Assembly (NCBI GenBank): GCA_030696845.1
Contig: JAUYRJ010000069.1
Location: 1 to 64,000, forward strand
Length of the DNA: 64,000 bases
Direction of reading: 5' to 3'
From: Polynucleobacter sp.
GTDB taxonomy: Bacteria; Pseudomonadota; Gammaproteobacteria; Burkholderiales; Burkholderiaceae
The translations under genes were made by a program, and so were the position numbers. Numbering within the stretch: the stretch's first letter is position 1; each line of letters begins with the position of its first letter. The notes beneath the pieces were generated by a model. The model made no database searches and was not told where the DNA came from. It saw only the letters and a list, made by a program, of their open reading frames with translations. Shown piece after piece: positions 2-16,675 of the stretch.

Positions 2-901
2 ACCCCCATTATTCCAAGGGATGAGCCAACCGTACTGGCCATTCTTGCCTACACTCTCTTTATTATCTTAGGCAGCTTTCGTTACATGACTTACATTGGC
101 TTTCGAATTACTTGGGTGGATGATTTAAATTCAAGTAAGAACGTATTAAATCAACCGCTTGTCAAAGCAATACAGGAGAAAAACCAGTTTTTGCAAGGCC
201 TAATTGCCTCAAACCGATTTATTGGAATTAGTGCGCTTGCCAGTTCTCTCGCCCATCAACTGAGTCAGCCCTTGACCACGATTGCGATCTTGGCTGAAAC
301 CGCTCGCAGGGATTTGCCTCCATCACCCCATAACGCTCAAACCTTAGCTTCATTAGATAAAATTAATACGCAATCCAATCAACTGTCAGGCTTAGTTCAA
401 AATTTGAGGCAGTTATTCAGGTCTAAGCCTGAAAAGCTCAAGTCGATCAATCTACAAAAGGTTTGCAATGAAGTTCTCGAAATCATCGAGCCGACCTTGC
501 AATCTAAGTTAATCACCCTCACCCAACATTATGAATTTAATCCCATTATTTTTGGTGACAGCGTTCAATTGCAACAAGTACTCATTAATCTCTTTAATAA
601 TGCGATTGAATCCATCGATGCTAGCAATCCAACCGTTCGCGAAATCGTCATAACAATTAAAGTCAATAGTGGATATGCAAGCCTCACGGTGAGCGACAGT
701 GGTGCGGGCATTGACCCAAATGCATTTTCATCTTTATTTGAACTCTATAAAACAAGCAAACCCGATGGAATTGGGGTCGGCCTTTGGTTGAGCAAAACAA
801 TTATGGAGCGGCAGAACGGCAAAATTAATGCATTCAATCATGCGCGTGGTGGCGCTTGTTTTGAGATTCAGATTCCGCTAAGCGAAACAGGAAGCACATA
901 A
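2..901 (+). CDS. Sensor histidine kinase, C-terminal part (5' end outside window)
   Basis: The frame is already open at base 2 and runs without a stop, so the gene begins before the window; the ATG at 86 is internal. The visible part starts with a membrane helix (bases about 29-80), then a HisKA dimerisation segment with the phospho-acceptor His in SLAHQLSQPLT (bases 254-256). The ATPase domain follows: N box with LFNNAIESI, G1 box DSGAGI and G2 box GIGVGLWLSK. It would autophosphorylate at the inner membrane and pass phosphate to the regulator encoded next. The stop and the regulator ATG are one base apart (TAAGATG), which implies translational coupling. The signal cannot be told because the sensor domain is missing. 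Confidence 0.93.
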   Translation, partial: TPIIPRDEPTVLAILAYTLFIILGSFRYMTYIGFRITWVDDLNSSKNVLNQPLVKAIQEKNQFLQGLIASNRFIGISALASSLAHQLSQPLTTIAILAETARRDLPPSPHNAQTLASLDKINTQSNQLSGLVQNLRQLFRSKPEKLKSINLQKVCNEVLEIIEPTLQSKLITLTQHYEFNPIIFGDSVQLQQVLINLFNNAIESIDASNPTVREIVITIKVNSGYASLTVSDSGAGIDPNAFSSLFELYKTSKPDGIGVGLWLSKTIMERQNGKINAFNHARGGACFEIQIPLSETGST

Positions 902-5718: not shown

Positions 5719-6168
5719 TCACTTGTCAAACTTCACTGTTACACCACTGGTGCTGAGATTTAACTGAAGGCCTTCAGAAGTGCTGGTCAAACGCATAATG
5801 ACCCCATTTTCGTTTTTCAAAATAGTGCCGCCCACTCCACCGCCCAAGGTAATGCTGCTCTCCAACTTCGTGAAGGTTCCTTGAAATTTAGCGAGTTCCT
5901 TCAGGTCATATACCTCGCCAACGGCGGATAATTTCGAGACACCCACGTTTGCACCCAAACTAATTCCGCTAATTTTAAAAGGGTGCTTCTTGCCTTCATA
6001 AGTCAGAACACCACCACCCGTGCTGCCACCAATAATGAGCGCAAATTGGGTTTCATTAATGCTAACTGTGCCCGATGGTTTTTTGGGGGGATCTGCTGCC
6101 AGCGCATTAAAACTGAGCATTGAAATTGGAAGCATCAAACCTAATACAACTTTTCTTAAATAAGACAT
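5719..6168 (-). CDS. Exported glycine-rich protein, possibly DUF1134/EipA-like
   Basis: A 149-residue protein with a clear Sec signal peptide (cleavage after NALA, about residue 24), giving a mature protein of about 125 residues. The mature part is beta-rich with glycine clusters (IIGGSTGGGVL, GISLGANVGVSK, LGGGVGGTI). The pattern, GVLTYEGKKHPFKISG in particular, reminds me of DUF1134/EipA envelope proteins, but I cannot confirm this by eye. A good AGGAGT ribosome site lies eight bases before the ATG. A terminator follows, so it is a single-gene unit. Confidence 0.8.
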   Translation of the reverse strand: MSYLRKVVLGLMLPISMLSFNALAADPPKKPSGTVSINETQFALIIGGSTGGGVLTYEGKKHPFKISGISLGANVGVSKLSAVGEVYDLKELAKFQGTFTKLESSITLGGGVGGTILKNENGVIMRLTSTSEGLQLNLSTSGVTVKFDK

Positions 6169-6620
6169 AAAAAAAACTCCTGAGTTTGGACTAAAGAGGC
6201 GAACTAGTCCGGTTATAAAAAACAGTTCAAAAATAGCTCTGTTGCATCGGTTCTGGCAAATAGATTACTGTCCTTGAAATAAACATACTTTATTTTTCAA
6301 TGGATGTGGCTTTACTTGCGTTATCCGGCAGACTGGCCGATGTATTGTTGACCTATCAAAATCATTCGTTACATGGGAAAGGGTACGGCACACGCACTGC
6401 AAAACCGAACCGATATTGGCGACCCTATTGCGGCACTTTCGCTGATAATGACCATTATTAATGATAACTAGTAATTACACCATTTATATTAGCTCTAAAG
6501 CTAATATCCATTAAAACGGGGTTTTTATACGAAATGAACCCACTTTACACATTGCCACTACTAGATAGTCTATTGGAAAATAGCCATTATTCTTAGTATT
6601 AACCCGCTCGAAAGAAAACC
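6169..6620. other. Intergenic region, 452 bases
   Basis: Divergent spacer between the exported-protein gene and the coiled-coil gene. It holds the palindrome at 6486-6507 and a 53-codon open frame at 6300-6461 (plus strand) without a ribosome site. I see no other gene. Confidence 0.6.
6486..6507. promoter_or_regulatory. Palindromic operator, site 1
   Basis: Arms ATATTAGCT and AGCTAATAT are a perfect 9-bp match around the spacer CTAA. A -10-like TATACG begins at 6526, 20 bases past the 7-bp core arm. The ATG of the gene at 6621 is 113 bases downstream. It is the longest and most symmetrical of five related sites. Confidence 0.7.
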
Positions 6621-7241
6621 ATGCTGACTGAAGAAAAAAAACAACTCATTGAGGCGGAAGAGCGCTATCGACACGAAATTTCATCCAAAATCAAAGAGGA
6701 TATTGGCGCCATTAAAGAAGAAGTAGAAAAAATAGAGCACAACATTTGGGCCAAGGTAAATGAGCTGCTGAACAGCAATGTGGGCATGTGGTTTTTATCG
6801 ACGGTTTTGGTTACTGGTGGTGCTGGCGCTTATCAAGCAACACAGCACCACTACGAGGTGAAATTACGAAACCATACGCAGGTGATTACCCACCAATTTG
6901 AAATTAGTAACCGCATTCAGAACATGAAGTATTTTTTGCGCAAAGCTACCACGTGCGGCGAAGCTGAGCTTGCATTAAAAAGTGTTTTCCAAAGCAAAAC
7001 GCCGGTCAGCCCAGATATTGAAAAATTGAGCCTGCTGGTTATCTACTTTAATTTTTATCAACTGACGGACCAACCCAAAAAAGAAACCTTAGAAATAGTA
7101 AGGCAGCTAGAAGATGAGGAATACCTGCTTCAACAAGAGAAGCCCAGCACCCCATTTCCTGAAGCGACTAGAACACGCTTGTTAAATTTATTAGATAAAC
7201 TAGAGCGCATTCAAGTAAGTGAGGCTAATCAGCACCGCTAG
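6621..7241 (+). CDS. Hypothetical membrane protein with N-terminal coiled coil
   Basis: A 206-residue protein of unknown family. The first 50 residues are charged and helical, likely coiled coil (EERYRHEISSKIKEDIGAIK). One membrane helix follows at about 55-73 (VGMWFLSTVLVTGGAGAY), then a helical soluble domain of about 130 residues with no motif I recognise. No strong ribosome site precedes the ATG. Promoter site 1 lies upstream. Its stop faces the stop of the next, minus-strand gene 16 bases away. Confidence 0.7.
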   Translation: MLTEEKKQLIEAEERYRHEISSKIKEDIGAIKEEVEKIEHNIWAKVNELLNSNVGMWFLSTVLVTGGAGAYQATQHHYEVKLRNHTQVITHQFEISNRIQNMKYFLRKATTCGEAELALKSVFQSKTPVSPDIEKLSLLVIYFNFYQLTDQPKKETLEIVRQLEDEEYLLQQEKPSTPFPEATRTRLLNLLDKLERIQVSEANQHR

Positions 7242-7257
7242 CACTGCGGCAAATCTA

Positions 7258-8058
7258 CTACTTTGGTAATGAAGCCGTAATACCGAGGTAACCACCAAAA
7301 CCTTTTGCGCTGGTTGGTGTTGTGGTGACCATGTAAGTGGGTCCCACTTGCAAAGACAATGCGTAACCAAATACATTAACTGTTTTTCCACCACTGAAGG
7401 TCAGTTGATTGGTAGCGCTTTGAGGCGAGTAGTTATACACAATTTGACTGGATAAATTAAATGTCCACGCATCATCCGTTGTGTAAGAGATAGTTGGCTG
7501 AACATTTAAGATATTGGCGGTTCCGCCCGAGGTATTGCTTCCTACCCCCCACGAATTAAACATTGCCCCACCAATAACCCAATTACCTGGCGTATAGAAC
7601 ACGCCCGCAGATACTCCCATACCCGTTTGTTTTGGGCCATTATTTATATTGGAAGCGGGAGTCTGTATATAAGGTCCGATTCCAGCATACCAATCACCCA
7701 CCAACACGGGAGCAAAAAATGTCGCCAATTGAAGGGGCTGCACTTGATTGGTTAACTGCGGATCGTTGGCATTGCGATTGTAGGTAAACATGGGGTTTAC
7801 TATGAGCTGCATGCTAGAAGTCAATTCAATCGGAATAATCGGTGCCACATAATATTCACCTTGCTGCACCGAATTATTGGCGCCCAAATTTTGGTTGTAG
7901 TTATACGTTATCGGCACCTGAATTTGAGGGTACAAGGGATTTTGCATATTCTTTGCCGCTTTTGCCGTCGAACTCATGGTGCTACCTTTTGATTGCGCAA
8001 AGGCAAACGAATGCAATCCGATGAGCATTAAGGCGAGGTATGTAAGGCGGGATGGCAT
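7258..8058 (-). CDS. Putative outer-membrane beta-barrel protein
   Basis: The frame opens at 8121, but a Sec signal peptide (SRLTYLALMLIGLHSFAFAQ) begins at the Met at 8058, which I take as the start (266 residues). The mature part alternates hydrophobic and polar residues in strands rich in Tyr, Asn and Gly (YYVAPIIPIELTSSMQLIVN, YAGIGPYIQTP, FGYALSLQVGPTYMV). This style is seen in uncharacterised 'neuromedin U'-like or transporter-like outer-membrane proteins. The last residues are SLPK, not the usual terminal aromatic. Function unknown. Confidence 0.72.
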   Translation of the reverse strand: MPSRLTYLALMLIGLHSFAFAQSKGSTMSSTAKAAKNMQNPLYPQIQVPITYNYNQNLGANNSVQQGEYYVAPIIPIELTSSMQLIVNPMFTYNRNANDPQLTNQVQPLQLATFFAPVLVGDWYAGIGPYIQTPASNINNGPKQTGMGVSAGVFYTPGNWVIGGAMFNSWGVGSNTSGGTANILNVQPTISYTTDDAWTFNLSSQIVYNYSPQSATNQLTFSGGKTVNVFGYALSLQVGPTYMVTTTPTSAKGFGGYLGITASLPK

Positions 8059-8261
8059 GTAATGGTTTAGGGGCAGATTCAATACAAAGGATTTCCGATC
8101 GGAATTGAATAATGCATACACTGCGCTAATCGTATTGGCATGCGCACAGCACAGTGTATACGATCTCGTGAGTAGATAAAACAGGGCTGTAGGGGTTGCT
8201 CAAGTGATGCGGGTACTCTGAATGCGGCTGTTTAAATTGAAGTATCCCTACACCAAAATAA

Positions 8262-8285
8262 ATAAGCCACCCGAGGGTGGCTTAT
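8262..8285. terminator. Hairpin terminator downstream of the small lipoprotein gene
   Basis: Perfect 10-bp arms ATAAGCCACC and GGTGGCTTAT flank a CGAG loop just past the minus-strand stop at 8307. A short T-rich tract follows on that strand. The stem core is nearly the same as the terminator at 5675-5700. Confidence 0.7.
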
Positions 8286-8306
8286 ATGAAATCCACTCAA
8301 TGCGCT

Positions 8307-8720
8307 TTATTTGCCAATCAAATCCAAGAACTGGACATGATCATTAATGTTGCTCACGAACGTAGTCGGATCGTATGCCATATTGCCTGTTTTAGTAAAC
8401 AAGAACATATAGGCTTTAACGCCCGTAAAATTGCCCGCATTATCTTTGGCGTTAACATCGCACACCACTAACCAACCAAAATTAGCGGGTTTATCCGTAT
8501 TCTGCCTTGCCCATGCCTTACGGGGAGGGGCGCATATTTTTTGCGCTTCATCGGGTTTATTGATGTTCGCTTTTAAGTACGCATTTACCTCTTTATCAAT
8601 CTCAGCTTGCTTGGGCTGAGGTGGAAATTGCGCCTGCTGAATCTCGAGCGGCGTAACGGGAACGGTACACGCCACCAATCCCAACATGGCGATAAGACTT
8701 AATAACTTCATTTTCATCAT
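8307..8720 (-). CDS. Small lipoprotein of unknown function
   Basis: A 137-residue protein with a lipoprotein signal (LGLVAC, Cys18). The mature part has two cysteines (IC and VC, likely a disulfide) and an alpha/beta pattern (FGWLVVCDVNAKDNAG, YMFLFTKTG). I do not recognise the family. It is transcribed alone, with a terminator hairpin behind it. A purine-rich GGGAAG precedes the ATG. Confidence 0.72.
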   Translation of the reverse strand: MMKMKLLSLIAMLGLVACTVPVTPLEIQQAQFPPQPKQAEIDKEVNAYLKANINKPDEAQKICAPPRKAWARQNTDKPANFGWLVVCDVNAKDNAGNFTGVKAYMFLFTKTGNMAYDPTTFVSNINDHVQFLDLIGK

Positions 8721-8830
8721 TTTCTTCCCTATTAAAAACGTTTTGACACCATCATGCGCATTGCATAACAGGAGTGCTGCCTACTACTGAAATGCCACAT
8801 TCACACTTCCACTAACCATGCATTACTACA

Positions 8831-9619
8831 TTAAAAATTAAAGGTCAGATTCAGTTGCGGCCCCTTGAGGTTTGCCTTCATCTCCGATCCTTCGCCCCGT
8901 AAATCAGCATATAGGGCACGGTAAACCAAGGAAACATCAAATGAGTTCGTAATAGCCTTACCCACTCCCAACATCGCCTGCCATGTCAAACTGGTAGTGC
9001 CGCCACCACCGCCCGCATCCGCATAGAAAGGGACATACCAAGTCGAGTCTGCCAAACGGTAGCGCCCTTTAAAGCCGGCAATCGGATCGATCGTATTAAA
9101 TGTGGTGCTGGCATTGACACTGGTCGCACGATCATTCAGGCTTAGGGAAGCTGTTGCAAAAGCGGCGCGCACACCCAGCAGAACATCCATATTCAGGTCC
9201 TTGGTATCCACTACCGTATACAAGGCAGAACCTGTGAGGACCGTGGCTTGCAAGGTGATCTTATCCGCAACCCTGGCGCTTCCCGTAGAGTCGGTTGCAT
9301 TAAATGAGCCCGTATTTTGCAGGGTCGCAAAGAACATATCGGTCATTACCCCCCATTTGCCTTTATGTATCTCCGAGGCACCCATCACTCCTGACTTAAG
9401 GTTGCTTAACACCTGACCCATGGAGAAATCCGCACTACTTACGGGCCCGTTATTGTTTTTTACCGTTGTCATGAGTCCAGGCCCCCATACATATGGAGTG
9501 ATGGATGAACGCCACTCATTGGTGACCTTTGGGATTGGACTTATTTCAGACTCAGCGCTCGCTGAACCCAGAAAAAAAACTAAAGCGGATGCAAATGCTA
9601 TTTTTTGAACTTTAAACAT
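8831..9619 (-). CDS. Putative outer-membrane barrel protein ending in Phe
   Basis: I place the start at the ATG at 9619, where the signal peptide begins (KVQKIAFASALVFFLGSASA); the longer frame from 9658 would begin with TTG. The mature protein of about 240 residues starts ITPYVWGPG and ends LNLTFNF, the terminal Phe typical of Omp85-assembled barrels. The 'TPYVWG...' opening is common in uncharacterised outer-membrane proteins of Proteobacteria. Operator site 2 lies 76 bases upstream of the ATG. Single-gene unit. Confidence 0.75.
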   Translation of the reverse strand: MFKVQKIAFASALVFFLGSASAESEISPIPKVTNEWRSSITPYVWGPGLMTTVKNNNGPVSSADFSMGQVLSNLKSGVMGASEIHKGKWGVMTDMFFATLQNTGSFNATDSTGSARVADKITLQATVLTGSALYTVVDTKDLNMDVLLGVRAAFATASLSLNDRATSVNASTTFNTIDPIAGFKGRYRLADSTWYVPFYADAGGGGGTTSLTWQAMLGVGKAITNSFDVSLVYRALYADLRGEGSEMKANLKGPQLNLTFNF

Positions 9620-9695
9620 GGTTTTGAACCTATAGAGTGAGGCCGACAGAAGGCCCAATTACCAGCTATTTCAATGCTTAATACATTCTTTGGCA

Positions 9696-9713
9696 ATTAG
9701 CCTAAAGGCTAAT
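9696..9713. promoter_or_regulatory. Palindromic operator, site 2
   Basis: Arms ATTAGCC and GGCTAAT form a perfect 7-bp match around TAAA. Compared with site 1, both arms changed together (T to C and A to G), so symmetry is conserved. A weak -10-like TGAAAT starts 22 bases past the arm, toward the barrel-protein gene. Confidence 0.68.
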
Positions 9714-9776
9714 GCATTCATGGTAAACCCTAGTTTTATTGGTGAATATGCACGGTTTCGTAGACACCTATACTCC

Positions 9777-10781
9777 TTAAGCCGATCCAAAAGCAAAGGG
9801 CTCTGCAGGCATGAACTGACTTGCAGCATTTCCTGCATAGTATTTACCTCCGGCAATCGCCAACTTCTTCACTGGCGCTCCTTTTGAAAAATCCATATCC
9901 TTTAATTCCACCCAAAACGTATTCGGTGTGGTGGCGGAATCAAAGTAATAGACCATATTCTGATGATCGGTGACCGTCCGCCAAATAGAAGATGAGATAT
10001 TGGGCTTATCCGGCGTAGTGATTCCCAGCGGAACACCAATACTTCTCATGACTCCCATAACGGATGCCACTGCCTGATATTGCAATTTCTGTTCTGGCAC
10101 GGCAGAAATGTAATTCTTATCAATGGATTTCGGAATGATGCCAATAAAATAAGAGGTTCTAATAAACCGATCGGCAGCGCTGATCGTGCCTGGTAAGAAA
10201 ACATTACCCCCAATGCTCTTCCAATATTCATTGATAGCCAACTGCTGATCAAAGATGGGTGAATTTGTCATCACTTGGTATTGCTTGCCATGATGAATGG
10301 TTAAATTTCCATCGACGTATTCAAAAATTGCCGAGTCGCCACTGGAATCAGAAAGCGATAAGTGCAAACTGGCTGCACGGCCATTAGGCAAAATAGGCGA
10401 TTTAATCCTAAAAGGCTCAGCTTGAAGGCTTGTTACCGCTTCCGCAACTGTTGCGTAGTTATCCAATGCATACTGCAACCACATGGTGATTGAAATGGGG
10501 GCCTTGCCATTTAGGCTGCCGTAATTCGATTCCGCTAAGTACAATAAATTTCCGCACAAACTCTTTTCATTGATTCCATCTGCTGAGCCAATGTTGTAGC
10601 CCGAGGTAACGACGCTTCCATATTTCGAAGTCCACTCCAAAGAGCCCGTACCGCATGACCCGTTACGAGCCATACCAGCCGGAAATACCCACAGATCACT
10701 ATGCATATCCTCGCCCCAGTCCATGGAGCGGCCAGTAAGCACTAAATTATTATCTCCAACATACAAAGCCCGTGTACACAT
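9777..10781 (-). CDS. Cytoplasmic choloylglycine-hydrolase-family Ntn hydrolase
   Basis: A 334-residue protein beginning MCTRALYVGDNN with a RSMDWGEDM motif, the hallmark of penicillin V acylase/bile salt hydrolase enzymes. After Met removal Cys2 is the N-terminal nucleophile; Arg and Asp of the RxxDW motif help bind substrate. Unlike its two relatives in this window it has no signal peptide, so it should act in the cytoplasm. Likely reaction: hydrolysis of a linear amide (penicillin V, N-acyl homoserine lactone or a conjugated acid); substrate unknown. It follows gloA and a marC remnant on the same strand. Confidence 0.88.
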   Translation of the reverse strand: MCTRALYVGDNNLVLTGRSMDWGEDMHSDLWVFPAGMARNGSCGTGSLEWTSKYGSVVTSGYNIGSADGINEKSLCGNLLYLAESNYGSLNGKAPISITMWLQYALDNYATVAEAVTSLQAEPFRIKSPILPNGRAASLHLSLSDSSGDSAIFEYVDGNLTIHHGKQYQVMTNSPIFDQQLAINEYWKSIGGNVFLPGTISAADRFIRTSYFIGIIPKSIDKNYISAVPEQKLQYQAVASVMGVMRSIGVPLGITTPDKPNISSSIWRTVTDHQNMVYYFDSATTPNTFWVELKDMDFSKGAPVKKLAIAGGKYYAGNAASQFMPAEPFAFGSA

Positions 10782-10847
10782 AAAAGTCTCCTATATCAGG
10801 TTGATGCTTTATAAAATTACAAATTAAATGAGCGGCACAGTTTGAAA

Positions 10848-11035
10848 TTACTTACCTAAAATCGCTTGATGCATTTGCAGCGCAAACCCTCTAAGTCACC
10901 TAAAAAAATTTGCGCACCGATAGTTAAGGGCTGAAAGAAAATAAGCGCATCAGCATCTAGTTGTATTTTTTCCGGATAAACGCTACGGACCTGAAGCTTT
11001 TCCATAACAAAATTAAAGAGGCTTAAATTATTCAT
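10848..11035 (-). pseudogene. Decayed C-terminal fragment of a second marC
   Basis: Read on the minus strand, IGAQIFLGDLEG matches the C-terminal IGVQIFLGGISG of the intact MarC encoded at 11545-12234. One missing T after GGTTT shifts the frame; correcting it restores GFAL, as in MarC. A second one-base loss upstream restores MRL. A 59-codon open frame (10856-11035) covers the remnant but has no family-like N-terminus. It sits just behind gloA, so gloA lies between an intact marC and a broken one. Confidence 0.6.
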
Positions 11036-11059
11036 ATCAAATCTTACTTTGATTATTAT

Positions 11060-11476
11060 TTATTGATCTTGCATTAATTCAATTTCATAGCCATCTGGAT
11101 CCCGCACAAAAGCTATTTTTCGATCTGCATAAGAAGGTGTAAATGGCCTTAGTACAACGGAAGCGCCACTATTAATCGCTCTATCAAACGCTTTAACAAC
11201 ATCATTGGTACCAATGCAAATATGCTTATAACCAACGCCCATATCAAGCGGTTTAGCATCCCAATTATAGGTAAGCTCCAGTGTCGTGGTAGTTTCGATA
11301 TCCCCATAACCGATGAATAGCAATGAGAGTCTCAAATCATCTGCATCAACACGCTCTAATAATCGCATCCCGAACGCATCACTATAAAATTTGACTGTCC
11401 GCTCGACATTCGTAATGATGTAATTAGTATGTTTAATCCTGAAATTCAACTCATTATTTTGGTTTGTATCTGGCAT
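11060..11476 (-). CDS. gloA: Glyoxalase I-like (lactoylglutathione lyase) protein
   Basis: A 138-residue VOC-fold protein. The four metal ligands of glyoxalase I are in place: His in IKHTNYI, Glu in TLELTYN, His in YKHICI and Glu in DGYEIELMQ. Expected reaction: isomerisation of the methylglyoxal-glutathione adduct to S-lactoylglutathione. The N-terminus has a few extra residues (PDTNQNNELN) compared with standard GloA. It is downstream of marC on the same strand with a 68-base gap, probably in one operon with the hydrolase gene above. Confidence 0.88.
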   Translation of the reverse strand: MPDTNQNNELNFRIKHTNYIITNVERTVKFYSDAFGMRLLERVDADDLRLSLLFIGYGDIETTTTLELTYNWDAKPLDMGVGYKHICIGTNDVVKAFDRAINSGASVVLRPFTPSYADRKIAFVRDPDGYEIELMQDQ

Positions 11477-11544
11477 TACTTCTTATTCCTTATTCAAGCG
11501 ATATGGAGCTTAAACAAATCTTTTTTTATGATTTGGAAAATTAC

Positions 11545-12234
11545 CTATTGATGGATAGGCATCAATTTATTCAAATCAAGCGCAAAACCACTAATACCAC
11601 CCAAGAAAATTTGCACTCCAATAGCCAGCAAGATAAATGCAAAAAGACGCATTAATACATTGGTTCCATTGACACCAAACAATCGCTGAATTCCAGATGA
11701 CTCACGATAAATAAAGTAAATAGAGAGCGACAGCGCAAAAAGCGCCAATAAAGTTCCTACTATTGCAGGCAAGTCATCGGCGAGGTTAAACCCTTTTTCG
11801 CTTTGATGCCCAGCCACTAAAGCTATTGCAGTAGCAATAGAACCAGGTCCAACCGTTAGCGGCATGGTTAGTGGGAAAAAGGCGCTACTTTCCGCTGTTT
11901 CATCCGTAATGCCTATCGATCCGCTAGCGCTCTTATCCGATCCGCTTTTCTGATTGAGAAGTTTCCAGCCCATCGCTATCACTACCGCTCCGCCAGCCAG
12001 CTTGAGTGCCGGCAGGGATATTCCAAAAAACAATAATAGTTGCGGGCCGATCAACATGGAGGCTAGCAGCATGAAAAAGCAATTAATACTTACACTTCTC
12101 GCTAATTTATTACGCACCTCCTCCGTGCATCCTTGAACCATATTCAGAAAGATGGGCCCGTCTCCCAATGGATTAATCACAGGAAACAGGGCCGCAAATA
12201 CGGCTATAAAACTAGCAAGGGTTATGGATAACAT
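11545..12234 (-). CDS. marC: MarC-family integral membrane protein
   Basis: A 229-residue protein with six predicted helices and the family signature FPVINPLGDGPIFL near the N-terminus. MarC/NAAT members were proposed as small-molecule transporters, but their role is unsettled. It starts 20 bases after the stop of the beta-lactamase-fold gene and is followed by gloA. A frameshifted copy of its C-terminus lies at 10848-11035. Confidence 0.9.
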   Translation of the reverse strand: MLSITLASFIAVFAALFPVINPLGDGPIFLNMVQGCTEEVRNKLARSVSINCFFMLLASMLIGPQLLLFFGISLPALKLAGGAVVIAMGWKLLNQKSGSDKSASGSIGITDETAESSAFFPLTMPLTVGPGSIATAIALVAGHQSEKGFNLADDLPAIVGTLLALFALSLSIYFIYRESSGIQRLFGVNGTNVLMRLFAFILLAIGVQIFLGGISGFALDLNKLMPIHQ

Positions 12235-12254
12235 GAGTTCCTCAAAAGCATCTT

Positions 12255-13562
12255 TTACTTATCAAATAATCCTGACTCCACAATCGGTCTCATATAGGCC
12301 TGATTCGGTCCTATGTCAGTATTGGTGCTGAAATAAGCAATGACCAAATCTTTACCTGGAGAAACGTAAAGGCCTTGGCTCATATAACCTAACTTCATCA
12401 TGTCACCATCAGGAAAAACAGCATCCCACTGACGATTATTACTGATGACGTAGTCACCCAAATTTGCCATAAAGCGCGGTCCGTCATATCCACTCATGAA
12501 GGCCTCGTGGCTTGGAAGCTCTTTTTGTATGCGATGAAGGGCCGCATCGGAAACAACTTGCTTATCAGAAATCTTTTTCCAGCTTGGCGTATAAAGCATG
12601 CCAAAGTGCATCAGATCACGCAGGCGGCTCGAAAGGAATCCATGACCAAGCTCTAGGGAGTCCGCGCATGAAAGATTGATCTGGATATCGTTTTCCAGTG
12701 ACATGTGCGAGAAAATCTGTTCATCTGCCACATCCGAAAACCGTTTGCCAGTCACTTCTTCAATAAGGATGACAAGCGACTGTGTAATCACTGAGCTGTA
12801 ATCAAACTGTGTACCGGGCTCGCATATTTTTGCCGCAGTCTTCATGATGGTACGTGTCGTCTCGACCTTGTTGGTGATCGGATCTGGAGAGCCGAACTCG
12901 GAGTGATAGAGGCGCGCCATGACGGAGTGAGGATCATGCCGTGTGACATCATTCTCGCCGACATTCAGGCCCGAAGCCATATTCATCAGATCAATAATTT
13001 TGATGTGCTCCCACGCTGTGCCGCAAAAATCTGGGACGTACTCACCGTAAGTCATGTTCTGATCAAGCTTTCCTGCATCGATCAGATGTTCGATCAGCAG
13101 GGCGGTAACGGGCTTTGCTGTTGACGCCCAGAGATGACTGTCCGTTGGCTTCATGCCGGGATAGCGCTCAAAAACAACTTTGCCTTTATGAGAAATAGCG
13201 ATAGCCTGAATGTAACTTTGTGGGTTTATGAGGTAATCATCTAGCGACAACTTTCCTAAAACGGTTTGCGCTTCGATCTCTCCAATCGCTGGAATGGGTT
13301 CGCTGGGTAGTGGAGCGTAGACCTTACTAGGTGACACGATCGCGGTATGCATCATCAAGGCCATACGCGTATTGGCAAACAATGCAAGGTCACCACCCGA
13401 TAACATCGTTTGGTAGTCGTAGTTGTCAAAAAATGCCTGATATTCCGCATTCGAATATCCGGCTAGTACTTTCGTTACGGGCTGACGACTAGCTGTAGCG
13501 TTCTGATCTATGGTGATAGCTCCCAAAAAATAATAATTTCTTGGAATAATGCCCCCATTCAT
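12255..13562 (-). CDS. Serine hydrolase, class C beta-lactamase fold
   Basis: A protein of up to 435 residues with the SxxK motif in LWASTAKPV and a Tyr motif (FDYSSV), as in the Beta-lactamase/EstB/6-aminohexanoate hydrolase family. No signal peptide is visible, which argues for an intracellular esterase or amidase rather than an antibiotic-resistance enzyme. The start is uncertain: the ATG at 13562 has no ribosome site and lies only 11 bases from operator site 3, probably ahead of the transcription start. A GGGAGC ribosome site lies seven bases before an ATA at 13511, giving a protein 17 residues shorter. First gene of a likely operon with marC and gloA. Confidence 0.82.
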   Translation of the reverse strand: MNGGIIPRNYYFLGAITIDQNATASRQPVTKVLAGYSNAEYQAFFDNYDYQTMLSGGDLALFANTRMALMMHTAIVSPSKVYAPLPSEPIPAIGEIEAQTVLGKLSLDDYLINPQSYIQAIAISHKGKVVFERYPGMKPTDSHLWASTAKPVTALLIEHLIDAGKLDQNMTYGEYVPDFCGTAWEHIKIIDLMNMASGLNVGENDVTRHDPHSVMARLYHSEFGSPDPITNKVETTRTIMKTAAKICEPGTQFDYSSVITQSLVILIEEVTGKRFSDVADEQIFSHMSLENDIQINLSCADSLELGHGFLSSRLRDLMHFGMLYTPSWKKISDKQVVSDAALHRIQKELPSHEAFMSGYDGPRFMANLGDYVISNNRQWDAVFPDGDMMKLGYMSQGLYVSPGKDLVIAYFSTNTDIGPNQAYMRPIVESGLFDK

Positions 13563-13572
13563 ACAATTAGTG

Positions 13573-13592
13573 TATTAGCTATAAAGCTAATA
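13573..13592. promoter_or_regulatory. Palindromic operator, site 3
   Basis: Arms TATTAGCT and AGCTAATA are a perfect 8-bp match around ATAA. On the minus strand a CATTAT hexamer follows 22 bases after the 7-bp core. It faces the beta-lactamase-fold/marC/gloA unit and is one of two sites in this 256-base divergent spacer. Confidence 0.7.
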
Positions 13593-13746
13593 ATAATTAC
13601 CCTAATATGCGGTCTATTCATTAAAAAACCGCTTTATTTTGTCTGAAAAAGAAGGATTTTTTCGGGGGCGGATTATTTTCCAGATTGATATGCCTATAAA
13701 AATTAGCATAATCCCCTCAAACTGGATTTAAATTCCGGCAATAGTT

Positions 13747-13764
13747 ATTAGCTATACAGCTAAT
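13747..13764. promoter_or_regulatory. Palindromic operator, site 4
   Basis: Arms ATTAGCT and AGCTAAT are a perfect 7-bp match around ATAC. TATTCT follows 22 bases later on the plus strand, and the ATG of the exported hydrolase at 13825 is 60 bases downstream. Confidence 0.7.
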
Positions 13765-13824
13765 GGTTATCGTTTTAACAGTTATTTATTCTATTTACAG
13801 TAATAACGATTAAAAAGGTTGATC

Positions 13825-14967
13825 ATGAAAACTAAAAAATTATTTAATGTAGTGGTTGCATCCTGCCTACTGGCCTATTCCATCGCAAATACATACGCAT
13901 GTACAGTACTAGCGATTACAGATAAAAACGGAAACGTTTATCAAGGTAGGGCAAACGAGTTTCCATACCAACAGCCTGATTCCTTGACCTACTGGCCAGC
14001 AGGCACCCGGATTGAGTCGGTTGCACCCGATAACAAGCAGGGTATGACTTTTAATACCAAGTATGGAATCCTCACCACCACCTTAAAAGGCATGACCCCG
14101 AATGCCAAGCAAGAGACAGTTCATGAGGGCGCCAATGACCAGGGTATGTCGATCACTGCTAATTTCTACACATTAAATTCTGAAACCACAATCACTGTGC
14201 CCGCTTCGCAAGCCCTGTCTGTGGTTGATTTTCCGACCTGGGCATTAGGAAACTTCCAAAATGTGGAGCAACTCAAGCGAGCATTACAGAATAAAGAGGC
14301 GGAAGTTTGGCTGCCCCGCATTGCAGCATACGGAAATATGATCACTCCAGTTCATTATGCGATTTATGACAAATCAGGCGGCTCCGTGGTTGTCGAGTGG
14401 AATGGTGGAAAAACCCAAATTTATGACAATAAGATAGGCGTAATGACAAATGAGCCTCCATTCCCATGGCATGTCGAGAATATGAATAACTTCGCATACC
14501 TGAGTAATGTCGACAAAAACACAGGTAAGTTCAATAAACTCAATGTAACCGCTTATGATTCTGGCGGCGCATTAGCCTCATTACCATCTACCAATACCTC
14601 GGTGGGACGGTTTGTTAAGGCCGCTTATTATGCAAACTTTGCGGAAAAGGCATCGACACCAGATCAAGCTCTATTTACCTTGAGTCATGTGATGAATAAC
14701 TTTGATAGACCCAAGGGCATTACAGTCGATAACCCCAATGCTGCTAATGCCGCTATGGGGGCTGCAGGAAGAACTTCAGAGTCAACCTACTTTACCGTGC
14801 TCAAAGATTTATCACGCAACTTATATTTAATGCGCACAATCAACGCGCTCAATTACACCCAATTTGACTTAAATAAGCTAAAAGAAGTGAAACAAACTAA
14901 GGTGGTGTCATTCAAGGATCTGAACGCGAATACCAGCCTCAATGGCGATCAGCTTTTCTTAAGATAA
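13825..14967 (+). CDS. Exported choloylglycine-hydrolase-family enzyme (penicillin V acylase-like)
   Basis: A 380-residue protein. I start at the ATG at 13825, six bases after AAAAAGG. The signal peptide ends at about NTYA, and the very next residue is Cys (CTVLAITDKNG). Signal cleavage would therefore itself expose the Ntn nucleophile, as in Gram-negative penicillin V acylases. Further motifs are QGRANEFPYQ and FDRPKGI. The substrate could be an acyl amide met in the periplasm, including N-acyl homoserine lactones; not decidable here. It diverges from the beta-lactamase-fold gene, and a strong terminator follows. It is a paralogue of the gene at 15087-16223. Confidence 0.9.
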   Translation: MKTKKLFNVVVASCLLAYSIANTYACTVLAITDKNGNVYQGRANEFPYQQPDSLTYWPAGTRIESVAPDNKQGMTFNTKYGILTTTLKGMTPNAKQETVHEGANDQGMSITANFYTLNSETTITVPASQALSVVDFPTWALGNFQNVEQLKRALQNKEAEVWLPRIAAYGNMITPVHYAIYDKSGGSVVVEWNGGKTQIYDNKIGVMTNEPPFPWHVENMNNFAYLSNVDKNTGKFNKLNVTAYDSGGALASLPSTNTSVGRFVKAAYYANFAEKASTPDQALFTLSHVMNNFDRPKGITVDNPNAANAAMGAAGRTSESTYFTVLKDLSRNLYLMRTINALNYTQFDLNKLKEVKQTKVVSFKDLNANTSLNGDQLFLR

Positions 14968-14990
14968 TGTAATTGATTCAATAGCAGTTC

Positions 14991-15018
14991 AAACGCCTCC
15001 AGATGGAGGCGTTTTTTT
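14991..15018 (+). terminator. Rho-independent terminator
   Basis: Perfect 10-bp arms AAACGCCTCC and GGAGGCGTTT around AGAT, followed by a T tract, 23 bases after the stop of the plus-strand hydrolase. Confidence 0.9.
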
Positions 15019-15044
15019 GGGCGCTTACAAGCGATAAACCCAAA

Positions 15045-15070
15045 TATAAGCCGCTATCAAGCGGCTTATA
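15045..15070. terminator. Hairpin terminator for the minus-strand hydrolase
   Basis: Perfect 10-bp arms TATAAGCCGC and GCGGCTTATA around TATCAA, 16 bases past the stop at 15087. A T-rich stretch follows on the minus strand. Confidence 0.75.
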
Positions 15071-15086
15071 GGATCACTGAATACGC

Positions 15087-16223
15087 TTACTTGTAGAACA
15101 GGTTAAATGCATCGGCGCCTGCTTTATCAACATCGTAGGTTGAGACCGATTTAATCTGTTTAACGCCCTTGAGCTTGTTCATATCGATCATGGACCAATT
15201 CAATGCATTAATGCTGCGGACGTAATACAGGTTACGAGAAAGATCGGCCATGACAGTCCACTCAGTCACTTCGCTTGATGTGCTCTTGCTACGCACACCA
15301 TCGCCAGTGCCGCCAGATCCATCCACTGTTAAATCATGAGGACGATCAAAGTTATTCATGAGATGCCCTAAAGTAATAATGGCCTCATCTGGTGTCTTGG
15401 CTTTGCGTACGTAGTTCACGAAAAAAGCTGCTTTAACAAAACGACCTTGCGATGTCTGAGCAGAAGGAAGCGCAGTCAATGCAATGCCTGCATCTTGAGT
15501 CGCTAATTTTAGTTTTCCGAGCTGACCAGTATTCTTATCCACGTTCGTGAAGGTGTAGTTACTTAAATTCTGAAGATGCCATGGAAACTCAGGTCCATTG
15601 GTCATCACACCCACTGGGTTGTCATACACATTCACTTTACCGTTCGTAAATTCAATCGCAATAGCGGCGCCTTTTTTGTCGTGAACGGCGTAGTGTTGCG
15701 GTAGCGGTGAATTTGGATCTAAGAACTTCGAAACAGGTACCCAAAATTCGGTATTACCACTCGCCATCGCCGCTTTCACCTCGGCTACAGTTTTAAAATT
15801 ACCCAGGATCCAAGCACCAAGATCATTGACTGCCAAAACCTTAGCATTGTCATTGCCTACTGTTGGCGAAGTGGTGCCATTAAGCCAGTTCATGGAAAAG
15901 CTCAGACCTTGATCATTGGCTCCTTCCGCAAAAGACACTTGCTTCGCGCCTGCAATAACTGCTGCACTCATACCCAATATCGCGAATTTGGTATCAAACG
16001 TTAAACCTTGCGCTCCACTTGGAGTGGCAGAGATTACTTTTGTTCCAGCAGGAAAATACGTTAGATTTGTGGGCACCCTGGCGCTGTATTCCATGGTGCG
16101 GCCATGGTATCCATTCCCATTTGCGTCCGTATAAACCAATGCCGTACAAGCAATGCTGTTACTTATTGAGGACGCGGCAAGGCAAGCAGCCAAAAATGCT
16201 TTAAATATATTTTTTGAACTCAA
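15087..16223 (-). CDS. Exported choloylglycine-hydrolase-family enzyme, second copy
   Basis: A 378-residue paralogue of the hydrolase at 13825-14967, convergent with it. The signal peptide ends SNSIA and the mature protein starts CTALVYTDANG, so cleavage exposes the nucleophilic Cys. HGRTMEYSARVP supplies the conserved Arg; Glu replaces the usual Asp-Trp, as in the other exported copy (NEF). The start is TTG at 16223 with AGGAG six bases upstream. Degenerate operator site 5 lies 64 bases before the start. Likely a periplasmic amide hydrolase of the penicillin V acylase group; substrate unknown. Confidence 0.9.
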   Translation of the reverse strand: MSSKNIFKAFLAACLAASSISNSIACTALVYTDANGNGYHGRTMEYSARVPTNLTYFPAGTKVISATPSGAQGLTFDTKFAILGMSAAVIAGAKQVSFAEGANDQGLSFSMNWLNGTTSPTVGNDNAKVLAVNDLGAWILGNFKTVAEVKAAMASGNTEFWVPVSKFLDPNSPLPQHYAVHDKKGAAIAIEFTNGKVNVYDNPVGVMTNGPEFPWHLQNLSNYTFTNVDKNTGQLGKLKLATQDAGIALTALPSAQTSQGRFVKAAFFVNYVRKAKTPDEAIITLGHLMNNFDRPHDLTVDGSGGTGDGVRSKSTSSEVTEWTVMADLSRNLYYVRSINALNWSMIDMNKLKGVKQIKSVSTYDVDKAGADAFNLFYK

Positions 16224-16675
16224 GATTCACTCCTATTTAGTTTTACGGCAAGATTTTTGATGGTAAAAAGAATTGCGCCTAATTTATATTCACTCTACAG
16301 CTAACATGGAAAACCCTAGATTATTTCCATTGACTGTGAATTGCCCTAGATATCTGAGGTTGTGGCCAAACGAGCTTGCTTGTGCAAACCATAAAATTTT
16401 TTGATAGTTACTTAGCGTTACAGCATCATTCTTAAGTGGCCCACCCCCTAAACTGGTGGGCATCAAAATAAATTCATGTTGTTTAGATCCAATTTGCTGA
16501 AGAGGCCGCCGAGTATGTCTGCCTAGCGTTGGGAGACGATTCATTACGATATGGCTAACTTTGATATGGAATCTTCTCGGGTGCAGGGCCTAGAAAATCC
16601 ATTTGGTTCCAAAAGATTAAGGGACGTGATTGATAAAGGTGTAAACCATGTGTCCGGTACGTATCTTGAGGTTGC
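16224..16675. other. Gene-free stretch with possible coding relics
   Basis: About 450 bases between the hydrolase promoter and the tRNA fragment. Two plus-strand frames read like protein and are probably one decayed gene broken by a frameshift: QFAEEAAEYVCLALGDD (stop near 16557), then SSRVQGLENPFGSKRL and GVNHVSGTYLEV (16551-16695), which runs into the tRNA fragment. I do not recognise the family. The minus-strand frames here have no family features. Confidence 0.35.
16288..16305. promoter_or_regulatory. Palindromic operator, site 5 (degenerate)
   Basis: The right arm AGCTAAC and spacer CTAC fit the other sites; the left arm ATTCACT matches ATTAGCT at five of seven positions. It lies 64 bases before the TTG start of the minus-strand hydrolase. 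TACCAT follows 22 bases after the arm on that strand, the same spacing as at sites 2-4. Confidence 0.5.

Follow-up and report, generated by a model that had tools for sequence, protein, structure and literature searches.

The locus described here raises the question of what function can be attributed to a palindrome that is repeated several times between the genes of a single stretch of DNA. This stretch, which we call the window, comprises positions 1 to 64,000 of contig JAUYRJ010000069.1 (C85 in our numbering) of the Polynucleobacter sp. assembly GCA_030696845.1, a genome of 1.95 Mb in 86 contigs, and it contains four exact copies of the palindrome ATTAGCYNNNNRGCTAAT (ATTAGCY-N4-RGCTAAT), listed in Table 1. 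On comparing sequences across the genus, we consider it highly probable that this palindrome serves as operator for an autoregulated activator of the FixJ/StyR type with a scattered regulon, of which the window would hold one cluster.

The first-pass annotation of the window had reported five copies of the palindrome and had taken the genes behind them for a local regulon. Four of these copies are exact, two of them lying 1-2 bases away from where they had been placed (they begin at 6488 and 13574, not at 6486 and 13573), while the fifth is degenerate, retaining one arm and carrying 3 mismatches. Taken alone, copy 5 is at chance level, as 7 matches with at most 3 mismatches were found in the window against 3.04 expected from shuffles; we have kept it among the operators on account of the hexamer TACCAT, located exactly 22 bp downstream. 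The five copies are all intergenic and placed before genes, as had been described, and no further full copy is present in the window, where the closest remaining sequence, at 1606, has 2 mismatches and lies within a gene. When the whole source genome was scanned allowing mismatches, 7 exact copies were found against about 0.04 expected in 2 Mb, the reversed-pattern control giving none, and a chance origin of the exact copies is excluded. The same scans revealed near-exact copies before an alkyl sulfatase gene (contig C27) and before the gene of a FixJ-like response regulator (contig C35). With 2 mismatches allowed, 33 matches were obtained against 28 of the reversed control, and for this reason such matches were not counted as sites.

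The palindrome is widespread in the genus, in which 271 exact copies were found in 129 of 186 genomes (380 Mb), where about 8 would be expected from base composition and where the reversed control gave 0 in all genomes. What had been seen as a local regulon therefore holds as a regulon defined by an operator-like element, but it is not local, since copies lie elsewhere in the genome and in other genomes of the genus and the likely regulator is encoded on another contig. The search was carried out with the N4 centre because a narrower pattern with a central TA missed many copies at the promoters of the response regulator; the stricter NTAN form had 0 matches in 24 sampled genomes from other genera of the same order. 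No full copy was found near the relatives of the response regulator in other genera or near homologs of the window hydrolases (Zwartia, Pusillimonas, and others), and one locus of Vreelandella (L211) presented a single 1-mismatch match, far from the gene.

The loci around approximately 100 copies were collected and reduced to 119 distinct sites, of which 109 are outside open reading frames (ORFs) of at least 80 codons, typically 27-75 bp upstream of a start codon. Among the 10 sites found inside ORFs some correspond to over-long ORF calls, and others (such as that in the dnaN-like ORF of L172) look like chance. The genes that recur behind the palindrome in different species encode alkyl sulfatases (PF14863/PF14864), the response regulator, choloylglycine hydrolases and the barrel protein, together with adhesins, an HTH_25 protein, a ShlB-type transporter, a passenger-repeat protein, a SoxH-like metallo-hydrolase, MBL proteins and a DUF3302 protein; the commonest positions genus-wide are those before the alkyl sulfatase and before the FixJ-like response regulator. 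A change in both arms of copy 2 had been interpreted as compensatory and hence as proof that symmetry is selected. This interpretation fails: 66 of the 119 sites show complementary letters at positions 7 and 12, against 64.4 in shuffles, the two positions thus varying independently, and no covariation of the arms in the expected direction was found in these sites at positions 7/12 or 8/11.

The position of the palindrome within the promoters is also very regular. A -10-like hexamer is found exactly 22 bp from the end of the palindrome, in either direction, in 69 of the 109 intergenic copies, compared to a background mean of 6.3, although these counts include orthologous promoters and the copies are not independent. 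When 96 copies were oriented to the nearest gene, 58% had such a hexamer starting at 31 bases from the centre of the palindrome, whereas most of the other offsets outside the palindrome gave 0-5%. Furthermore, a search of the whole genus for the palindrome followed by 22 bases and TANNNT was positive in 106 genomes, and its control in none. The 22-bp spacing is common to unrelated promoters, namely those of the response regulator, alkyl sulfatase, ShlB-type, HTH_25, MscS-like, choloylglycine hydrolase and barrel genes. If the hexamer is set at -12 to -7, the palindrome centre falls near -43, close to the -41.5 around which class II activator sites are centred. The palindrome thus occupies the position of a class II activator in these putative sigma-70 promoters, which would be expected to depend on an activator. 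In practice, the 22-bp rule separates the true targets from their neighbors at divergent promoters, pointing for example to the MscS-like and HTH_25 genes. As a side observation, an exact copy flanked by a bactofilin-like gene and an integrase gene (L018:9738; G000:C27:29737) has no -10 hexamer at the 22-bp gap.

The candidate regulator is the FixJ-like response regulator whose gene adjoins ilvD at positions 48395-49024 of contig C35, a different contig from that of the window. It has an N-terminal receiver (PF00072, 4.1e-26) with an LLDMQMP motif in which the aspartate is present, and a C-terminal GerE helix-turn-helix (PF00196, 1.8e-16). FixJ is the named family that it resembles most, but its scores are below the curated cut-offs both of the NCBIfam FixJ model (159.5 bits, cut-off 255) and of the model for the tetrathionate response regulator TtrR (144.5 bits, cut-off 290), and its nearest solved relative is StyR (1yio, 143 bits). 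In 29 of 30 loci of this regulator examined, a palindrome with at most 2 mismatches is present outside the gene at the expected promoter place, about 57-60 bp before the ATG; some copies at these loci (such as those of L127-L129) carry 1-3 mismatches. Most of the loci contain a second palindrome, usually imperfect, at the 3' end of the regulator gene and before an HTH_25 gene; in loci L125-L154 this HTH_25 (RodZ-like) gene, located after the regulator, usually has its own, often imperfect operator. The recognition helix TDATIKVHKARVMEKM is near-constant in orthologs down to about 57% identity, with the pattern TDATIKVHK[AS]RVM[ED]KM, and the best relatives outside the genus are at most 46% identical and have no full operator copy at their loci. 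Most genomes of the genus contain the regulator, at E values below about 1e-56. Of the 186 genomes, 135 have a clear ortholog and 48 do not, 3 intermediate ones being set aside, and the palindrome was found in 117 of the 135 but in only 12 of the 48 (odds ratio 19.5, Fisher p = 7e-15, with kinship ignored).

With regard to the partner of this regulator, our favourite is an orphan histidine kinase whose gene lies directly upstream of the alkyl sulfatase gene, and which has about seven hydrophobic segments followed by HisKA and HATPase_c domains. A second orphan kinase is encoded on contig C20, where an operator copy separates its gene from a divergently oriented HTH_25 gene; the 22-bp rule assigns this copy to the HTH_25 gene. 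In genomes G086 and G089 the response regulator has one in-frame stop and both the kinase and the alkyl sulfatase are fragmentary; in G085 the regulator is absent and the other two genes are broken; in G088 the regulator is intact although the kinase and sulfatase are fragmentary. This co-decay, observed in few cases, links regulator, kinase and alkyl sulfatase together. In the mechanism that we propose, a membrane histidine kinase would phosphorylate the FixJ/StyR-type regulator (receiver plus LuxR/GerE helix-turn-helix), which would bind as a dimer to the inverted repeat ATTAGCY-N4-RGCTAAT, centred near -43. The bound regulator would activate, rather than repress, sigma-70 promoters that have a -10 hexamer and in which the activator takes the place of the -35 element (class II). 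It would turn on its own gene and those of mostly exported enzymes and surface proteins across Polynucleobacter, the hydrolase and barrel island of the window being one among several target clusters.

Several observations weigh against this proposal. The genomes are related, so that the counts and the Fisher test, made without phylogenetic correction, are not independent. Twelve genomes without a close ortholog of the regulator still carry a copy of the palindrome; one of them (G146) has a promoter of the type found before the regulator, and its regulator gene may be merely broken or missed. FixJ-like paralogs in L161 and L169 are also preceded by a copy and could share the operator site. In the window itself, the -10 candidates of copies 1 and 2 at the expected spot are weak. 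A different protein, such as a repressor of the TetR, MarR or GntR type or the HTH_25 protein, might bind the palindrome, the FixJ-like regulator being only one of its targets. Repressors commonly use symmetric 18-bp palindromes and HTH_25 genes adjoin copies at several loci (L017, L088, and the loci of the response regulator), but the fixed class II spacing suits an activator and not a repressor that covers the core promoter, and the presence of the motif tracks the response regulator across the genus. Moreover, HTH_25 genes carry operators themselves, and in the listed clusters TetR or MarR genes are not repeatedly found next to the copies, except for a small winged-helix-like protein (cluster c13), which is itself a target. 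We therefore regard binding by another protein as improbable.

It is still less probable, to a point where we have rejected it, that the cluster is regulated by the kinase and FixJ-like regulator encoded in the window (2-901 and 903-1547). They are close at hand, the regulator reaches 106.6 bits with the FixJ model, and the kinase resembles the orphan kinases (cluster c1). However, this regulator has the recognition helix TLRTIKWHRASIKNKL, which is not that of the autoregulated one, no palindrome is found near the pair, and the regulator had no match to the query with the autoregulated one at E 1e-30, so that it is not the conserved ortholog. In its own right, the segment 2-1547 encodes a further response regulator of the FixJ-like type, along with a kinase truncated by the contig start. 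Finally, a perfect inverted repeat in multiple copies could be a mobile or structural element, either like a miniature inverted-repeat transposable element or a terminator hairpin, spread by copying. This we find barely credible, since the flanks differ among copies beyond 1-4 bases and the N4 centre varies freely, the copies are upstream of start codons at a set distance from the -10 hexamer, and the same promoters keep them in diverged species despite changed spacer letters; the promoter geometry already contradicts it.

The FixJ-like regulator can be compared with several known systems. StyR governs styrene catabolism, has a soluble PAS kinase as its partner and recognizes a site like ATAAACC/GGTTTAT, unlike the ATTAGC/GCTAAT found here; in our case the kinases are multi-transmembrane and encoded apart, and the targets differ. 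Like the C35 regulator, StyR consists of a FixJ-type receiver and a LuxR/GerE domain, and in the StyS/StyR system of Pseudomonas fluorescens it binds to inverted repeats in its phosphorylated, dimeric form, with its main activating site, STY2, at about -40 (PMC2442086), compared to about -43 here. The domain order is also common to FixJ of the rhizobial FixL/FixJ system, but the C35 regulator is below the model cut-off, so it is not FixJ itself, and no nitrogen-fixation genes were seen among the targets. The SdsB/SdsA system of Pseudomonas controls an alkyl sulfatase related to the commonest target described here (PF14863/PF14864), although SdsB is a LysR-type regulator whereas our candidate is a two-component response regulator. 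Another LuxR-family response regulator, CrbR/ErdR, controls the acetate regulon in Pseudomonas and Vibrio, where a conserved imperfect inverted repeat, the ACTU motif, precedes its targets (PMC5715377). This resembles the arrangement found here, but CrbR/ErdR has its own motif (such as TACTACCATCGTCGAAT), a kinase fused to SLC5 and other targets, and the C35 regulator has only 52.8 bits with the ErdR model (cut-off 390).

Table 1. Operator copies, -10-like hexamers and associated genes in the window.
Feature	Position	Strand	Remarks
Operator copy 1	6488-6505	.	ATTAGCTCTAAAGCTAAT, exact
-10 candidate TACGAA	6528-6533		Copy 1, toward coiled-coil gene; weak
-10 candidate TATCAT	6461-6466		Copy 1, toward EipA-like gene; 21-bp gap
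Operator copy 2	9696-9713	-	ATTAGCCTAAAGGCTAAT, exact; precedes outer-membrane barrel-like gene
-10 candidate TGAAAT	9668-9673		Copy 2; weak
Operator copy 3	13574-13591	-	ATTAGCTATAAAGCTAAT, exact; precedes beta-lactamase-fold hydrolase gene
-10 candidate CATTAT	13546-13551		Copy 3; at the expected 22-bp spacing
Operator copy 4	13747-13764	+	ATTAGCTATACAGCTAAT, exact; precedes exported choloylglycine-hydrolase-family gene
-10-like hexamer TATTCT	13787-13792	+	Exactly 22 bp past copy 4
Operator copy 5	16288-16305	-	ATTCACTCTACAGCTAAC, degenerate; precedes second exported choloylglycine-hydrolase-family gene
-10-like hexamer TACCAT	16260-16265	-	22 bp from copy 5
EipA-like gene	5719-6168	-	Pfam EipA match; candidate target of copy 1
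Protein with predicted coiled-coil-like N-terminus	6621-7241	+	No Pfam match; possible target (copy 1)
Outer-membrane barrel-like exported protein	8831-9658	-	No family match; putative target
Third PF02275 hydrolase	9777-10781	-	Same island; without own operator at the usual place
Serine beta-lactamase-fold hydrolase	12255-13562	-	PF00144; start codon uncertain; putative target
Exported linear amide C-N hydrolase (choloylglycine hydrolase family)	13825-14967	+	PF02275; putative target
Exported linear amide C-N hydrolase	15087-16223	-	PF02275; putative target

In the window, copies 3, 4, and 5 follow the 22-bp rule, and copies 1 and 2 do so weakly; which of its two flanking genes is the target of copy 1 is uncertain. 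The longest ORF of the beta-lactamase-fold gene begins only 12 bp past copy 3, and the transcription start predicted from this copy falls inside it, indicating that the annotated start is probably too early and that the true start is probably further in. The marC and gloA genes are same-strand downstream neighbors only. The three PF02275 hydrolases score 126.6, 145.5, and 165.3 bits (gathering score 20.4), none of them reaching the 350 bits set as cut-off for the bile-salt-hydrolase equivalog, and their substrate is not predictable; they form one island with marC (9777-16223), and relatives in Zwartia, 58-60% identical, have no operator. It was also observed that copies 2 and 5 share CATGG(T/A)AAACCCTAG on the promoter-distal side, with differing spacing (9714-9735 and 16306-16320), and that CCCTAG, which is similar to half an operator, might represent another half-site.

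Conservation upstream of orthologs, which the first-pass annotation had proposed as a check along with the genome-wide count, was found in Polynucleobacter sp. 31A-FELB (L112; G147:C4; NZ_JACVOO010000013.1), whose island is syntenic with that of the window but rearranged. Exact palindromes are located 65 bp before the start of the ortholog of the 13825 hydrolase and 127 bp before that of the barrel ortholog, with TAGGAT and TATTCT, respectively, at the 22-bp gap. This island also contains marC and a homolog of the coiled-coil protein, and a barrel homolog with operator is present in L118 as well. Apart from this regulon, a DnaB-like helicase ORF (L016:5977-8001; G000:C10) appears to be split into two helicase blocks by an intein-like insertion.

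In our literature searches, whose coverage left out most subscription journals, no described two-component regulon of Polynucleobacter was found. The regulon presented here is ordinary in kind and new as an instance. Its signal is possibly a sulfated or amide-linked amphiphile, judging from the target enzymes alone, and the idea of several kinases converging on a single regulator is a guess of ours. We also put forward, as a tentative proposal that we judge more doubtful than probable, a hub specific to Polynucleobacter in which several orphan multi-transmembrane kinases of one family would act on one orphan autoregulated FixJ-like regulator. This regulator would coordinate surface adhesins and a mechanosensitive channel with exported enzymes that hydrolyse amphiphiles (alkyl sulfates, acyl amides), and the whole hub would be lost together in streamlined species. 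The genus Polynucleobacter is abundant in fresh water and its genomes are small; its operator, with the spacing to the -10 hexamer, the gene of the regulator and the list of targets, is now defined specifically enough for experimental testing.

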